From the NCBI GenBank assembly GCA_904419285.1, contig CAJFQZ010000007.1, positions 1 to 64,000 of the forward strand: a DNA stretch of 64,000 bases. The letters run 5' to 3'. Below the pieces are notes generated by a model. It saw only the letters and a program-made list of their open reading frames with translations. It made no database searches and was not told the DNA's origin. A program made the position numbers and the translations under genes. Numbering within the stretch: the stretch's first letter is position 1; each line of letters starts with the position of its first letter. Below, one piece after another: positions 1-57,919 of the stretch. The DNA comes from Lachnospiraceae bacterium UBA1818. GTDB lineage: Bacteria; Bacillota; Clostridia; Lachnospirales; Lachnospiraceae.

Positions 1-111
1 CTTGAAATTTCAGAAATGGCAAAAGCGAAAAAAGAAGAAGCTGTAATTAATATGAACTTTGCAAAACAAAGTGAGGATGCATATAAAGAAGAAATGCAAA
101 GCTTTGAGTAA
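1..111 (+). CDS. C-terminal fragment of an unrecognised AT-rich gene (5' end outside window)
   Basis: The forward frame is open from base 1 to a TAA at 109-111 and gives 36 residues. They are Lys/Glu/Ala-rich and look helical, ending in Q-S-F-E. Base composition is far more AT-rich than comEC downstream. I do not recognise a family from so short a tail. Its position beside a disrupted gene suggests it is the last gene of an integrated element, where recombinase genes often lie, but nothing in the fragment identifies a recombinase. Confidence 0.5.
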   Translation, partial: LEISEMAKAKKEEAVINMNFAKQSEDAYKEEMQSFE

Positions 112-193
112 AGGGTCAATGTATTTCTGATAATTGTTAAGAATATAAAACAGATATTTATACATGATCTACATATGTAAATAGTGTTAGATT

Positions 194-270
194 GGCTATT
201 TTGCGTAGGTTTTACACAGAGTACATTTCAAAAATAGATGTATATTGTGTAGAAAGCCTGTGAAATAGCC
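194..270. repeat. Imperfect palindrome near the element end
   Basis: Arms 194-218 and 246-270 are inverted copies with eight identical outer bases and five identical inner bases (acaca/tgtgt). A further inner pair, 222-226 (tacat) and 238-242 (atgta), continues the symmetry. It could be a recombinase arm-binding site, a terminator-like hairpin for the gene ending at 111, or an operator. No T-tract follows. Confidence 0.45.
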
Positions 271-285
271 ATTTTCACTCTTTGG

Positions 286-2028
286 GTGGTGCCGAAAATT
301 ATCTCCGGCCTTCATATGTCGTTTATCGGCATGGGGATTTACGGCATTCTGAGAAAAGCAGGGCTTTCCTTTATCCCTGCGGGGATCATGGGAAGTGTGG
401 TGCTGGGGCTGTATACCCTGATGATCGGAGCCGGTGTGTCCAGTCTCAGAGCGCTTGTTATGTTTTTGATGCGGATCGGGGCGGATATGACAGGAAGGGA
501 TTATGATCTTCCGACAAGCCTTTCCCTGGCGGCCGCGGCAGTCTGCGCATGGCAGCCGCTCTATCTGGCAGATGCTGGATTCCTGCTGTCCTTCGGAGCT
601 ATTCTCGGAATCTGTCTTTTCAGTCCTGTCTTTTCAGAAATGTTCACCGGAGAAAAGCAAAAGCAGAAGAACAGCAGAAACGGGGACGTGAGCGTGCGGG
701 AAAAGCTTAGGAGGGCTGTCCTGGGACTGGCGGAAAGCCTCAGTTCCAGTATGGCGGTCAGTCTGATGCTCCTGGGACCGACGCTGTATTTCTATTTTGA
801 GATCCCGCCTTACTCGGTGTTCCTGAATATCCTGGTGATCCCGGTGATGCCGCTTGCCATGGGGGCAGGGCTTACCGGTCTGCTGCTCTGTCCGGTGTCA
901 GAGCCGGCAGGCGCCGCTGTCCTTCAGGTCTGCCGCGGAGTCCTGTGGTTTTACGACAGGGCTTGTACTGCGGCCGGAAACCTTCCGGGGAGCCGGATTG
1001 TTACCGGACAGCCGGCCTTATCCTGGCTGTTCATCTATTACAGTATGCTTTTCCTGCTCGCTGCAGGATTTTTTCGCCTCCTGGAAGTGCGCAGGAGGGA
1101 GGGAGAACGGTTCAGGAGAAGAAAGCTGATCCGGGGGACAGGGGCGGTCCTGCTTCTGTTCGGAGGGATCATGACAGCAGCGTGCAGGGCGGGACATGCA
1201 GGGAAAAATGAAGTCCGGGTGACAGTGCTGGATGTGGGACAGGGGGATGGGATCCACGTCCGGGGACCATCGGGGATCAATTATTTTATTGACGGGGGGA
1301 GCAGTGATGTCTCGTCAGTGGGAATATACCGGATCGAGCCGTATCTTCTGAGCAGAGCTGTGGACTGTCTGGATTATGTTTTTGTCACCCATGGAGATCT
1401 GGATCATTACAGCGGGATCATGGAGCTGATGGAGGATCAGGAACTCGGAGTCCGTATCCGCACGCTCGTGCTGCCACCGGAAGAGTGCCGGGATGAGAGG
1501 CTTCGGGAACTGGGACGGACAGCGGCTGTGAACGGGATACGCGTTGTCGAGATTGCTGCAGGGCAGTCCCTGGAGGAAAAGAACGGAAGATTTTCCATTG
1601 CCTGCCTTGCTCCGGAGGCGGGAGCGGGGATTCAGCCCGGAAACGCGGCATCCCTGGTGCTGGAGCTGAGATTCGGGGCGTTCGGCATGCTGCTGACAGG
1701 AGATGTGGAGGCGGAAGGGGAAGAGGCTCTTTTGAAGAGCGGGCGCCTGGGACGATGCCAGATCCTCAAGGCAGCCCACCACGGATCGAAAAATTCCGGT
1801 TCGGAAGCATTTCTGGAAAAAGTCAGACCGGCTGTGGCGATTATATCTGCGGGTGTGGGAAACAGATATGGACATCCTCACCGGGAGACACTGGAAAGGC
1901 TTTCCGAGGCTGGATGCAGCGTTTGTTCCACGCAGGAATCAGGGGCTGTCACAGTCGTAAGCGACGGAAATTCGATCAGGCTTGGAGGCTTTCTCGGGAC
2001 AGACGAAAAAGCACAGGATGGGAGCTAA
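286..2028 (+). CDS. comEC: ComEC/Rec2 DNA-uptake channel protein, 5'-truncated by insertion
   Basis: ComEC carries single-stranded DNA across the cytoplasmic membrane during natural transformation. What remains starts at the S-G-L-H-M motif of the competence domain (residues about 7-11 counted from GTG 286). Hydrophobic segments follow to about residue 300. The last 270 residues are a metallo-beta-lactamase-like domain with D-V-G-Q-G-D (about 313), T-H-G-D-L-D-H (about 367) and A-H-H-G-S (about 497). Family members usually have 700-800 residues, so the N-terminal OB-like region and first membrane segments are missing. GTG 286 has no good ribosome site and is only the start of the open frame; the gene is probably not functional while the element is present. 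Excision could restore it. Confidence 0.8.
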   Translation: MVPKIISGLHMSFIGMGIYGILRKAGLSFIPAGIMGSVVLGLYTLMIGAGVSSLRALVMFLMRIGADMTGRDYDLPTSLSLAAAAVCAWQPLYLADAGFLLSFGAILGICLFSPVFSEMFTGEKQKQKNSRNGDVSVREKLRRAVLGLAESLSSSMAVSLMLLGPTLYFYFEIPPYSVFLNILVIPVMPLAMGAGLTGLLLCPVSEPAGAAVLQVCRGVLWFYDRACTAAGNLPGSRIVTGQPALSWLFIYYSMLFLLAAGFFRLLEVRRREGERFRRRKLIRGTGAVLLLFGGIMTAACRAGHAGKNEVRVTVLDVGQGDGIHVRGPSGINYFIDGGSSDVSSVGIYRIEPYLLSRAVDCLDYVFVTHGDLDHYSGIMELMEDQELGVRIRTLVLPPEECRDERLRELGRTAAVNGIRVVEIAAGQSLEEKNGRFSIACLAPEAGAGIQPGNAASLVLELRFGAFGMLLTGDVEAEGEEALLKSGRLGRCQILKAAHHGSKNSGSEAFLEKVRPAVAIISAGVGNRYGHPHRETLERLSEAGCSVCSTQESGAVTVVSDGNSIRLGGFLGTDEKAQDGS

Positions 2029-53344: not shown

Positions 53345-54580
53345 ATGTACGACTTCGATGAAATCAAGACAACAGATCCGGAGATCGCGGACGCGATCAA
53401 GGCGGAAATGGAGAGACAGAACTCACACATTGAACTGATCGCATCTGAGAACTGGGTGAGCAAGGCTGTCATGGCTGCAATGGGAAGCCCGCTGACGAAC
53501 AAATACGCAGAGGGGTATCCGGGTAAGAGATACTACGGCGGATGCCAGTGTGTGGACATCGTAGAGAATCTTGCAAGAGAGCGCGCGAAAGAACTCTTCG
53601 GCTGTGAGTATGCGAATGTCCAGCCGCATTCCGGAGCACAGGCGAACATGGCTGTATTTTTCGCTATGCTTCAGCCGGGAGACACTTATATGGGTATGAA
53701 TCTGGATCACGGCGGCCATCTCACCCATGGTTCACCGGTCAACATGTCCGGAAAGTATTTCCATGTAGTTCCGTACGGCGTGAACGAGGACGGCGTGATC
53801 GATTACGACAAGGTCCTTGAGATCGCGAAGGAATGCCATCCGAAGCTGATCGTTGCAGGAGCCAGCGCATATGCGCGCACGATTGATTTCAAGCGTTTCC
53901 GTGAGATCGCGGACGAGGTCGGCGCTTACCTCATGGTAGATATGGCGCATATTGCAGGTCTTGTGGCGGCAGGACTTCATCCGAGCCCGATCCCGTATGC
54001 ACATGTCACAACGACGACGACTCACAAGACACTGCGCGGACCCCGCGGAGGAATGATCCTTTCCAGCAATGAGGTGAATGAGAAGTTTAACTTCAACAAA
54101 GCAGTGTTCCCGGGAATCCAGGGGGGACCGCTGATGCATGTGATCGCGGCAAAGGCAGTCTGCTTCAAGGAAGCGCTCCAGCCTGAGTTCAAGGAGTATC
54201 AGAAGCAGATCCTCAGAAATGCCAAGGCGCTCTGCGAGGGACTCAAGAAGCGCGGCGTGAAGATCGTATCCGGAGATACGGACAACCATCTGATGCTGGT
54301 GGATCTGACAGATGCCGGCGTCAGCGGGAAGGAGCTTGAGAAACGCCTCGACGACGCGCATGTGACATGCAACAAGAATACGATCCCGAACGATCCACGT
54401 TCCCCGTTCGTTACAAGCGGCGTGAGACTTGGTACTCCGGCCGTGACGACCCGCGGCATGAAAGAGGACGACATGGACAAGATCGCTGAGATCATTGCTA
54501 TGGTGATTCAGAGTGAGGATAATGTGGAAGCCGCAAGGAAGATGGTGGCAGAACTCACAGAGAAATACCCTTTATGTTAG
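53345..54580 (+). CDS. glyA: Serine hydroxymethyltransferase
   Basis: GlyA interconverts serine and glycine with tetrahydrofolate and supplies one-carbon units. The PLP lysine is in [14 protein letters not shown] at about 226. The N-terminal I-A-S-E-N-W-V-S and [15 protein letters not shown] motifs are intact. ATG 53345 is eight bases after GGAGGA and gives 411 residues, the family norm; ATG 53339 is too close to the ribosome site. It is a single gene; an AT-rich foreign-looking stretch follows at once. Confidence 0.96.
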
Positions 54581-54820
54581 GCATAGATCGTAAATATAAA
54601 TTGGGATCAAATTTATGGAACTGTATTTTTGAATATGAAAAGTGAAAATATTCAAGGATAGTAAAATGTTAAGGCTTCGAGAGATGATTGCAGTACAAAT
54701 TTGATGAAAGATGCACTGTTTGAATCTATTTTCGAAGCTTTAATTTATGCAAAAACAATTCAGCTGAAGAGCATAACATAGCAAGTTGTCGAAATTATAG
54801 AGTTTTATATTCTAATACAA
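54581..54820. other. AT-rich intergenic stretch before the KAP gene
   Basis: No gene is seen. The composition changes right after the glyA stop. An inverted pair, 54671-54683 (aaggcttcgagag) and 54729-54741 (ttttcgaagcttt), pairs fully if G-U is allowed and may end glyA transcription. Promoter-like hexamers (TTGTCG at 54786, TATATT or TCTAAT at 54806-54816) precede the KAP gene but have poor spacing. Confidence 0.4.
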
Positions 54821-56170
54821 ATGAGGGTGAAGATAGTGAAAAAATTACTCGATCCTACAGAGAAGAATATTTTTCTTTCAATTAAGAAGGATACCTTACA
54901 AAGAAGTCGAGATGTTAAAGATTTTATTTTACTTTTGGAAAGAATAGATTATAATGCTTTTATTGCTATTGATGGAGACTGGGGGGATGGAAAAACTTTT
55001 TTTATAAAGGAAATAGAGTTTACTTTGCGATATTATAGAAGAAAAAAATTAAACATGGCAGTAAGCAAAGAAGAAAATGATGCTTTTTCCCATAATTCTA
55101 TTTTGGGGAATATAGACGATTTAGAAGTTAGATCTACATATCTACCATTATATTTTAATGCATGGCTTTACGATAATCATGGAGACCCTTTAGCTGCATT
55201 ATTGCTATCACTAACCAAACAAATAGAAAAAGATGTTAATACGACATTAGCTTCGTCTATAATAGATAAAATTGCCTCCGTAATGGATAGTCTTCAGTTT
55301 TGGGAGAGCAAGAATTGGACTAATCTAATAAAAACAATGAAAGGGAAAAATATTTTGGAAAACGCTATCCTTCTTGAAGATATTAAAGCCTTGACCTCAG
55401 ATATTTTTCAAGAGATATTAGCTGAAGAAGGAAAGCGTATGGTTGTTTTTATCGATGAATTAGATCGTTGTAAACCTACATTTGCAGTTGAATTATTAGA
55501 AAGGATTAAACACTATTTTGATAATAATCAGATTGTTTTTGTAATATCTATAAACAAACACGAATTGATTCAAACTATACGAAAATACTATGGCGATAGT
55601 TTTAATGCAAATAGGTATTTAAACAAATTTTTTGATTTGCAATTTCAGCTTCCGGTGGGAAATATAGCTCGTCATCTAGAATCAATCGAATTAACAAAGC
55701 ATAGGGATGACGATATTATGATTGATATCTCTAATAGTTTGCAAATGAGTTATCACCTTTCTTTGAGAGATACAATACTTTATTTTGATAAAGTGCAAGT
55801 TATAGCCAGCAAACTTGAAAGAGAAAAAATCGAATCAGGAGTCAAAAGATTGCTGAATATAATGATTCCTATAATATGTATCTTTGATATAAATGATAAC
55901 GAAAAAAAGCAGCAGATACTTGACGGGACAGGTGTAGAAATAGTAAAAGCTGTTGTTTCGAATAATGAGATAATCCAAAAATATCTTTTGGAGTTAAAGG
56001 AAGAAAATAAATTAACTCCAATTAATGTGCAGGGGATATTACGAGAAGTAGAAAATGCGTATAAAGTTGCGTTTGGAAAAAATAGATATGGACAATATTT
56101 TCAGGGACGCTTGTTTGAAGTTGATGCTTCGTTTGTGAAGTTTTGTATTAGAGTTTGTAACGGAATGTAA
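54821..56170 (+). CDS. KAP-family P-loop NTPase
   Basis: Walker A is D-G-D-W-G-D-G-K-T-F at about 50-59 and Walker B is V-V-F-I-D-E-L-D-R-C-K-P at about 207-218. The Y-F-N-A-W-L-Y-D-N segment near 110-118 is a typical KAP signature. Unlike many KAP proteins there is no obvious membrane helix between the Walker motifs. Length is 449, or 444 if GTG 54836 (behind gaggg) is used. Codon use is strongly AT-biased compared with both neighbours, indicating recent transfer. Related NTPases occur in phage-defence loci, so a defence role is a reasonable guess, but no partner nuclease or toxin gene is adjacent. Confidence 0.85.
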   Translation: MRVKIVKKLLDPTEKNIFLSIKKDTLQRSRDVKDFILLLERIDYNAFIAIDGDWGDGKTFFIKEIEFTLRYYRRKKLNMAVSKEENDAFSHNSILGNIDDLEVRSTYLPLYFNAWLYDNHGDPLAALLLSLTKQIEKDVNTTLASSIIDKIASVMDSLQFWESKNWTNLIKTMKGKNILENAILLEDIKALTSDIFQEILAEEGKRMVVFIDELDRCKPTFAVELLERIKHYFDNNQIVFVISINKHELIQTIRKYYGDSFNANRYLNKFFDLQFQLPVGNIARHLESIELTKHRDDDIMIDISNSLQMSYHLSLRDTILYFDKVQVIASKLEREKIESGVKRLLNIMIPIICIFDINDNEKKQQILDGTGVEIVKAVVSNNEIIQKYLLELKEENKLTPINVQGILREVENAYKVAFGKNRYGQYFQGRLFEVDASFVKFCIRVCNGM

Positions 56171-56219
56171 TGTAAGGGTTTAATATATCTTTTTAATTTG
56201 TTGATATTAATAAACCCAA

Positions 56220-56247
56220 AGGGCGGATTCAATTTTTTCTCCGCCCT
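56220..56247 (+). terminator. Hairpin after the KAP gene
   Basis: Perfect eight-base arms 56220-56227 (agggcgga) and 56240-56247 (tccgccct). The six-T run lies in the loop rather than after the stem, so it is not a standard terminator. Confidence 0.45.
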
Positions 56248-56301
56248 GCCGGTCTCGGACATTATACCATCCGACAGCCTCCCGATTGAAGGTTCTGCTG
56301 A

Positions 56302-56516
56302 CCGGATGAGTGTGAGTTAAAGGGGCGGATGTTATAAAACAGGGACTTCAAGTGGAGCGTTCCGAATACAGTTTGCTCAGGTTGTTAAAGACCGTGGAAA
56401 ATGGGTTTCCAATGGAACACTTTTTCTACGGTCTTGTTACAACCTTTCAAACGGATGAGGTAGAGCGGAACGGTCCCGCGTTATAACATCCGCCCCTTTG
56501 ACGTCTCATTCATCCG
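56302..56516. repeat. Long imperfect palindrome (about 215 bases) between the KAP gene and the ior operon
   Basis: Arm pairs from outside in: 56303-56309 with 56510-56516 (7/7); 56319-56336 with 56482-56499 (18/18); 56380-56401 with 56422-56444 (nearly complete, one bulge); and a tip pair GTTTCC/GGAAC. The organisation resembles the 350-base palindrome at 11545-11894, though the sequences differ. The rest of 56171-56608 holds no gene. Confidence 0.78.
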
Positions 56517-56562
56517 CTCAGAAAACCTGAATTTTTCACTTTAATTCGGCAAAGTATTATGT

Positions 56563-56568
56563 TATACT
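56563..56568 (+). promoter_or_regulatory. -10 box of the arylacetate operon
   Basis: TATACT at 56563-56568, about 40 bases before the first ligase start. No good -35 lies at the right distance (tttaat at 56540-56545), so an activator may be needed. Confidence 0.4.
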
Positions 56569-56608
56569 GAACAAAGCGAATGTTTACAGCGAAGGAGGTA
56601 TACTGGCA

Positions 56609-57919
56609 ATGATTTGGGCAAAGGAAGAAACTCTGCCGAGAAGTGAGATTGAGGCCATTCAGCTTGCAAAGCTGAAGGAGTCGGTCAGATATATTTACGA
56701 CCGTGTGAAGCCTTATCGGGAAAAGATGGATGCAGCGGGAGTTAAGCCGGAAGACATCCGGACTCTTGAAGATCTGAAAAAGCTGCCTTTTACATATAAA
56801 GCAGACTTCAAAGACAATTATCCGGACGGGCTTTTTGCCGTGGATAAAAAAGAGATCGTACGCTATCATGCAAGCTCCGGTACGACAGGAAAACCTACGG
56901 TAGTCGGATATACAAGGAACGATCTTGATATATGGCTGAACAATGTGGCCAGGATCGCCTGTATGGGAGGAGCATCCTCGGATGATGTGGCGCAGATCTC
57001 GTTTGGCTATGGTACATTTACAGGGGCTCTGGGACTTCACGGCGGACTGGAAAAGATCGGAGCGTCCGTAATCCCGATGTCGTCCGGCAATACGAACAAA
57101 CAGATCATGTTCCTCCAGGATATGGGAGTGACTCTTCTGGTGGCCACCCCTTCCTATGCGCTTCATCTCGGTGAGGAGATCCGGAAGAGAGGGATCGATC
57201 CGTCCAGGGACCTGAAGATCCGGATCGGACTTTTCGGCGGAGAAGGAATGACGGAGCCGATGCGGGATGAGATGCACAAAGTATGGGGCGAACAGTTTGT
57301 CTGTACACAGAATTATGGAATGAGCGAGCTGTGCGGCCCGGGAGTGGCAGGAGAATGTACGGAACTCTGCGGCATGCACGTGAATGAAGACTGGTTCATA
57401 CCGGAGATCATTGATCCGAAGACGGAGGAAGTTCTTCCGCCGGGCGAACGCGGGGAACTTGTTGTGACCTGCCTGGGCAAGGAAGCTCTGCCGCTTATGA
57501 GATACCGCACCGGGGATATGACGAGACTGATGTATGAGCCGTGCAGATGCGGGCGGACGACAGCCCGGATCGAGAACCTGTCAGGACGTGCAGATGACAT
57601 GCTGGTGATCCGCGGCGTCAATGTATTCCCGACACAGATTGAGGAAGTGCTGCTTAAGATCGAGGAGATCGGACCTCACTACGAGATTCTTGTGGAGCGG
57701 AAGAACCGTCTTGATGTTATGACGATCAGTGTAGAACTTATTGATGACAGACTGCTCGACAGCTACGCGAAACTGAGCGAACTGGAGGCAAGGATCAAGG
57801 CTGCTCTGAAGTCACAGCTGGGACTCGCCACTCAGATCCGGCTTGTAGCCCCGAATTCACTGAAGCGGTTCGAGGGAAAGGCAAAGAGAGTGACAGATTT
57901 ACGAAAGGATGGACTGTAA
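56609..57919 (+). CDS. Phenylacetate-CoA ligase family protein (first copy)
   Basis: An AMP-forming acyl-CoA synthetase of the PaaK type, joining arylacetates to CoA with ATP; in anaerobes it may also run with aryl-acetyl-CoA made by the adjacent oxidoreductase. The ATP motif S-S-G-T-T-G-K-P-T is at about 89-97, and the adenylation motifs L-M-R-Y-R-T-G-D and R-G-V-N-V-F-P-T-Q-I are near 294-301 and 332-341. Length is 436. Start is ATG 56609 behind GAAGGAGG. It is the first gene of a six-gene operon; the next gene starts right at its stop. Confidence 0.92.
   Translation: MIWAKEETLPRSEIEAIQLAKLKESVRYIYDRVKPYREKMDAAGVKPEDIRTLEDLKKLPFTYKADFKDNYPDGLFAVDKKEIVRYHASSGTTGKPTVVGYTRNDLDIWLNNVARIACMGGASSDDVAQISFGYGTFTGALGLHGGLEKIGASVIPMSSGNTNKQIMFLQDMGVTLLVATPSYALHLGEEIRKRGIDPSRDLKIRIGLFGGEGMTEPMRDEMHKVWGEQFVCTQNYGMSELCGPGVAGECTELCGMHVNEDWFIPEIIDPKTEEVLPPGERGELVVTCLGKEALPLMRYRTGDMTRLMYEPCRCGRTTARIENLSGRADDMLVIRGVNVFPTQIEEVLLKIEEIGPHYEILVERKNRLDVMTISVELIDDRLLDSYAKLSELEARIKAALKSQLGLATQIRLVAPNSLKRFEGKAKRVTDLRKDGL

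Follow-up and report, generated by a model that had tools for sequence, protein, structure and literature searches.

What interrupts comEC at the edge of this contig, and what kind of DNA is it? The window, by which we mean the whole 64,000-nucleotide stretch analysed here, is the start of contig C7 (G000:C7:1-64000) in a Lachnospiraceae assembly, G000, of 2.77 Mb in 51 contigs. A preliminary description of this DNA had placed an AT-rich element inside comEC at a conserved S-G-L-H motif and had likened it to the prophages that occupy comK in Listeria. We conclude that bases 1-300 are probably the right end of a mobile, horizontally transferred element, inserted site-specifically at the AT of the isoleucine codon in the L-A-I-S-G-L-H motif of Mediterraneibacter comEC. 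We use class C as a working name for the kind of element whose right end is window bases 1-300.

An AT-rich element end abuts comEC in the window

The features at the junction are as follows:

1..300, plus strand: right-hand part of a class C element, truncated by the contig start; GC 0.307, without ComEC similarity
1..111, plus strand: 3' end (36 codons and the stop) of a gene of the element, heading towards comEC; reading frame open from the contig start
161..302, plus strand: conserved right end of class C, a long imperfect hairpin; 81-83% identity to each of five other genomes
286..2028, plus strand: 3' part of comEC, an open reading frame of 580 aa with PF03772 positions 28-265 and a metallo-beta-lactamase-like domain
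301..302, no strand: AT found at both junctions, the crossover or insertion point; its partner is on contig C24 (L004 400-401)

The match to the ComEC profile PF03772, the single one in the G000 assembly at E <= 0.001, begins at window base 301, from profile position 28 onward, in agreement with the earlier reading that comEC becomes recognisable only from about there; the boundary of the element, the AT at 301-302, likewise lies where that reading had put it. The sharp change in composition that it described was borne out, with a GC content of 0.307 in bases 1-300 and 0.567 in bases 303-2028, and among 1268 other 300-bp windows only 1.7% reach the AT content of bases 1-300. The 36-codon frame upstream, described as not ComEC-like, indeed has no match in Pfam, and none in the phage or plasmid collections. 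Within the open reading frame at 286..2028, host comEC accounts for 303-2028, and the possible GTG start at 286 comes from the element. Elsewhere in the window, a second AT-rich stretch lies at 54304-56800 (1-kb GC 0.30-0.40).

The two halves of comEC rejoin at a shared AT

The preliminary description had pointed to the far side of the element as the place to look for the 5' part of comEC, and the missing part was found there, on contig C24 of the same assembly, by its DUF4131 match. The C24 frame reads KNGIGHLLA and then runs into the left end of the element, AT-rich foreign DNA with an early stop. The left junction reads CTGGCCAT, then AAATAATACC; the right junction, in the window, reads GAAAATTAT, then CTCCGG. 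When the two flanks are fused in silico at the AT they yield a single open comEC frame of 780 residues, reading HLLAISGLHMSF (HLLAISGLH) across the join, and the motif L-A-I-S-G-L-H is the same in 29 of the 30 intact loci fetched from the genus. Since the assembly holds one split comEC, we infer that C7 and C24 belong together; the element between them is spanned by no contig. The two G000 junctions have just this AT in common, and nothing beyond these 2 bp corresponds to the short duplicated core that had been anticipated at both ends.

Class C ends recur at the same codon beside diverged comEC genes

A search with the 143-bp right end found it abutting comEC at the same codon in G010, G045, G048 and G051 (4 of 98 relatives, own genome apart), and it does so too in Candidatus Blautia faecavium. 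The preliminary description had named a chimeric join at bases 1-297 as what would undo it. Apart from the fact that the window begins at a contig end, little speaks for a chimeric join or another assembly artefact, which is refuted by like junctions in five further assemblies, that of the Blautia included; we give this explanation practically no weight. In all, 10 of 99 genomes matched in the right-end search, own included, and the matches in G075, G095, G079, G093 and G017 (there at another place), all short and with E between 3e-4 and 9e-4, were dropped as chance.

Class C left ends abut the 5' half of comEC in G000, G010, G029, G045, G047 and G051. The left type stands beside the 5' half in all six left junctions and the right type beside the 3' half in all six right junctions, to which G047 adds one divergent right end; orientation is thus constant in all class C junctions, which at this codon come from eight genomes and two genera. 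The left-end search over 58 genomes matched nine, where G038, G041 and G048:C185 cover the inner leader only and G007 is short, so that these were left uncounted. The G045 left end was missed by this search and rests on the split-comEC and junction readings, and that of G047 rests on the search and is absent from the left-end alignment. In G000 the bases common to both junctions are AT; G010, G045 and G051 have three such bases, with that AT among them.

Comparison of the ends with the genes beside them gives the pattern of an element whose ends are fixed and which has recently been transferred horizontally, as near-identical ends stand beside far-diverged comEC. In G010 and G048, the 326 bp up to the junction are 100% identical and the comEC 3' halves 60.2%; in G045 and G051, 786 bp are 98.6% identical and comEC 58.3%; in G045 and Blautia, 179 bp are 99.4% identical and comEC 44.8%. 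In these three pairs near-identity ends exactly at the junction. The window's own right end is 81-83% like the others, next to comEC genes that are 45-66% alike. This comparison and the pair G045/G048, with a right end of 86.0% identity and a comEC of 82.7% (747 positions), are less telling, and we count both against our preferred explanation.

Beyond the genus, a right-end search of 397 family genomes was convincing only in G000 and G010 (a short match in G174 was dropped). An exact-pattern scan of 84,980 species genomes, which divergent ends would escape, returned seven loci, of which five were true, all lying no more than about 2.2 kb from the end of their contig. The remaining pattern matches (L043, L046) and a match in a viral contig (L047) were unrelated sequence and were dropped. 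Neither bases 1-297, nor the 36-aa frame, nor the end patterns had a true match in the phage and plasmid collections or viral contigs, and no complete class C element was found in the family-genome search or the species-genome pattern scan.

Right ends fold and left ends carry repeats

Three of the six right ends were folded, and all three gave structures far more stable than those of shuffled sequence, with RNA z-scores of -5.0, -5.8 and -5.8 and DNA z-scores of -3.2, -5.1 and -4.8; the window's own right end (161..302) has the RNA value of -5.0 and the DNA value of -3.2. The left ends are without such folding (DNA z -1.3, -1.4 and -0.9; three of six folded) and carry TGTGTTTTGTGT-type repeats about 35 and 100 bp from the junction. 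In the right-end alignment, whose six rows include few independent ones, 4 of 49 consensus pairs are changed on both sides, and none of the eight loci tested had a match in Rfam.

Before the cargo genes, the left ends of G000 and G010, and weakly that of G051, show a promoter-like stretch and a short terminator-like hairpin (L004 120-260 in G000:C24, minus strand; L034 5840-5951; L033; L031 127-233). Without a class C end, the same stretch also occurs in G041 and G048, next to a eutP-like gene, and in G038, in the neighbourhood of an asparagine-synthase gene, these genes being named by eye.

Cargo in three class C genomes resembles defence genes

Cargo could be read in three relatives. In G051 it comprises two SIR2-like proteins, one of which, of 1307 aa, combines SIR2-like and AAA domains and found no counterpart in the phage collection. 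The left cargo of G045 comprises a regulator, a NUDIX protein, an adenylosuccinate synthetase, a deoxynucleoside kinase, a HicB-like antitoxin and a weak TIR-like match, and its right cargo a weak Tmn-like match; the right cargo of G047 includes an HD-CE domain protein. PADLOC matches to the cargo were weak, and the cargo of these three genomes looks defence-like mostly by name. By analogy, the window's own element may hold similar cargo. The element in G045 exceeds 9 kb, and its left 9.2-kb part, searched in 58 genus genomes, returned repeats and the G047 end only, with no second copy of the island. This G045 island also contains a 300-bp non-coding repeat with inverted ends (L091 10041-10340) that resembles a miniature inverted-repeat element and recurs partly in G000:C29, G040, G019 and G046.

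The recombinase gene that had been expected for the window's element was not found. No recombinase domain was seen in the 9.2 kb at the G045 left end (all nine frames of at least 80 aa), in the two main frames of the 6 kb at the G051 left end, or in two frames of the 2.2 kb at the G045 right end. About 400 bp inside the G047 left end lie an IS91-type transposase and a tyrosine recombinase (L030 230-2276, G047:C93), which we read as a secondary insertion. The recombinase domain PF07508 is missing from both the G000 and the G047 assembly, and among its carriers (G010, G029, G045, G048, G051 and Blautia) the best between-genome identity is 45%; a serine recombinase common to class C genomes was thus looked for and not found. 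The missing interior was also sought in 60 contigs of G010, read over their first 20 kb or entirely (contigs up to C63; long contigs at their starts), where contig-start overlap gave no recognisable piece; a lone end-motif match among these contigs was taken as chance.

Prophages occupy the same motif

In the genus, PF03772 was matched in 57 of 58 genomes, with matches spanning the motif in 46 and a split at the motif in 11. Seven of the 11 splits are class C (G000, G010, G029, G045, G047, G048 and G051, with a single junction seen in G029 and G048); the other four are prophages, of class A in G017 and G034 and class B in G056 and G039 (right side only). Three prophages are complete, with both comEC halves on one contig, 73.6 kb apart in the single-contig genome G017, 56 kb in G034 and 55.7 kb in G056. 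The G034 prophage encodes terminase, portal, capsid and lysin domains, and phage structural genes in the G017 and G056 prophages were judged by eye from frames. It also encodes three large serine recombinases (Resolvase and Recombinase domains), whose homologues are 91-95% identical in G017 and 56-69% identical in G056. The prophage junctions share the GG of a glycine codon, 6 bp from the class C AT. The likeness to comK prophages proposed earlier thus holds for the genus as a whole, given the complete prophages with serine recombinases that G017, G034 and G056 carry at the motif. In the parts of class C elements that could be read, no phage gene was recognised.

A family-wide sample matched PF03772 in 387 of 397 genomes, and we re-examined 27 genomes picked for two PF03772 matches or weak scores. 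Foreign DNA stands at the motif in G296, G485 and G305 (in the last for some 20 bases), and the contigs of G255, G265 and G292 stop at the motif without foreign DNA; resting on these 27, the family tally is 5 of 387 genomes with an insertion seen (G000 and G010 included) and 3 with a break. The prophage in G485, a single-contig genome of another genus, is of class A and aligns to that of G034 over 40 kb at 90%, and G296 has class B ends. In G292 (C5/C15) and G255 (C11/C33), at loci L156-L159, the contigs stop precisely at the motif and overlap by 2 bp, which a mixture of occupied and empty sites would give; trimmed prophages would look alike. The comEC motif is a recurrent docking site for at least two unlike kinds of element. 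Site-specific integration into comEC, as the preliminary description had it, agrees with the repeated use of the same codon and with flanks that rejoin into one open frame.

Split comEC genes show no detectable loss of constraint

The full-length ComEC frame is lost in the split genomes. We compared pN/pS in the 3' halves of 11 split sequences (Blautia included) with that of 29 of 46 intact genomes, leaving out G052 (locus dropped because its motif was not located) and 16 intact genomes without a fetched locus. The median was 0.432 both across the 319 split-intact pairs and across the 406 intact-intact pairs, in a test that is weak, with synonymous sites near saturation in many pairs; no loss of constraint in the split 3' halves is detectable by this weak test. 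Among the 11 split 3' halves, that of G048 alone is frameshifted. Such an undetected loss of constraint is compatible with recent insertion, with excision, or with parts that have retained function.

How class C may enter comEC

In the mechanism that we favour, the element would insert at the AT of the isoleucine codon in comEC L-A-I-S-G-L-H by site-specific recombination, catalysed by a recombinase presumably encoded in the unassembled interior and flanked on both sides by cargo in the style of a staphylococcal cassette chromosome. Precise excision would restore comEC. In the integrated state the full-length DNA channel would be lost, and this loss would also block the host from removing the element by transformation.

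The nature of this recombinase may be narrowed by the junctions. One candidate is a large serine recombinase whose gene would lie in the unassembled interior; AT would be its crossover dinucleotide, and the layout would be like that of SCC cassette chromosomes, which carry internal ccr recombinase genes. The junction overlap of just two or three bases with no longer duplication, the serine recombinases and shared 2-bp GG of the prophages at the same motif, and the cargo at both ends of the G045 element all speak for it, and we regard it as a substantial possibility that falls somewhat below an even chance. However, the crossover dinucleotide of a serine integrase must be asymmetric to set direction, and AT is palindromic, yet orientation is constant; self-complementary AT and fixed orientation together fit a plain serine integrase poorly. 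The absence of PF07508 from the G000 and G047 assemblies and the lack of a near-identical copy among class C genomes argue against it as well. Classical tyrosine-integrase elements have an identical 6-8 bp overlap at both junctions, and Tn7-like transposons make a 5-bp target duplication, so that the short overlap argues against both; no TnsB or TniQ was noticed in the frames scanned near class C ends. A tyrosine recombinase of another habit, acting through a heterology-tolerant overlap as in CTnDOT and Tn916 or on a folded single-stranded right end as in integron attC sites, is a possibility of only slightly lower weight. It would suit the constant orientation, the two or three shared bases and the contrast between folded right ends and unfolded left ends (three of each), and the joined G000 site reads, by eye, as an imperfect dyad around the junction. 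Apart from the IS91-associated gene of G047, no such gene was seen close to an end, and the right junctions carry the host's own codons with no carried-over coupling sequence, both of which count against it.

The site might instead be a passive hotspot, with ends placed once and cargo swapped by homologous recombination in the absence of a live recombinase. Conserved ends around different cargo in G000, G010/G048 and G045/G051, contigs that break inside the ends and the failure to find a recombinase would all agree with this, but near-identical ends meet diverged comEC exactly at the AT, once across genera, and homologous exchange would be expected to drag the comEC flank along; we consider a passive hotspot unlikely. 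A more far-reaching version of active movement holds that class C is an orientation-locked mobile defence island whose folded single-stranded right end recombines, attC-like, at the comEC AT, that it spreads across gut Lachnospiraceae genera and swaps cargo, and that its leaving restores the channel, which would make defence content and competence exclusive and switchable. Taken as a whole, this scenario is speculative and distinctly improbable.

Relation to known elements in competence genes

Among the closest parallels to the prophages are those in streptococci. According to the available parts of the source, Phi1207.3 of S. pyogenes uses a GA dinucleotide in comEC as its integration target and encodes three serine recombinases, two of which form a tandem pair (PMC4260502), and 1207.3 elements in comEC are reported in accessible text elsewhere (PMC12587576). 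As far as that first account extends, Phi1207.3 and Phi10394.4 resemble the prophages of G017, G034 and G056 in outline, with a 2-bp comEC target, three serine recombinases and a tandem pair after the lysis genes, whereas the target is GA in Phi1207.3, GG in these prophages and AT in class C, and the third recombinase lies in the left arm of Phi1207.3 but beyond the tandem pair in the prophages; the class C parts seen, unlike Phi1207.3, have no phage gene or serine recombinase (PMC4260502). The NatCom gut prophages are a further parallel: one G034 recombinase is 91% identical to one in PV036410.1, and 6 of the 11 comEC-matching phage records are NatCom. These records are prophages, like classes A and B, whereas class C is not recognisably phage. 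In PV036434.1 (L163), filed under Ca. Heliusvirales, a host comEC 3' fragment adjoins the phage and is annotated as a phage hypothetical protein; the words comEC, recombinase, serine and competence are absent from the main text of the paper on this group (PMC9226167).

In Listeria, the comK prophages split a competence gene at one site and excision restores the frame, as it does for comEC here in silico, but regulated excision has been demonstrated there, and comK encodes a regulator and comEC a channel, on the excerpts consulted (PMC6872733). The AbaR and other islands in comM of Acinetobacter, in what is accessible of their description, interrupt a competence gene with resistance or defence islands (CBASS, Zorya), as class C does; the AbaR islands are Tn7-like (PMC11472951), whereas the overlap at class C junctions is two or three bases rather than five. 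Tn1207.1 of the pneumococcus is a cargo element that splits comEC, in cells described in the part available as unable to import DNA; it is a 7.2-kb resistance element, whereas class C exceeds 9 kb in G045 and has other ends and cargo (PMC8321556). Partial texts also discuss insertions in comYC, comK, comFA, comM and comEC (PMC4774983) and prophage sites that inhibit pneumococcal transformation (PMC12637031). Among the matches listed from the openly accessible literature, none reports this comEC site in Lachnospiraceae.

Implications

Elements in competence genes are an already known kind, as are prophages in comEC (streptococci, Phi1207.3). We found no earlier description of a comEC hotspot in Lachnospiraceae that receives different kinds of element, or of one like class C, which joins comEC at an AT and has asymmetric ends, the right one folded. 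Class C appears to be a carrier of defence-like genes, and the single-contig prophage carriers G017 and G485 make excision directly testable. To our knowledge, competence has hardly been studied in Lachnospiraceae. In the accessible accounts from streptococci, Listeria and Acinetobacter, the insertion of mobile elements into competence genes is recognised as a mark of the conflict that sets transformation against mobile DNA; here, in a large family of gut bacteria, two or more unlike kinds of element have used the same comEC motif again and again.
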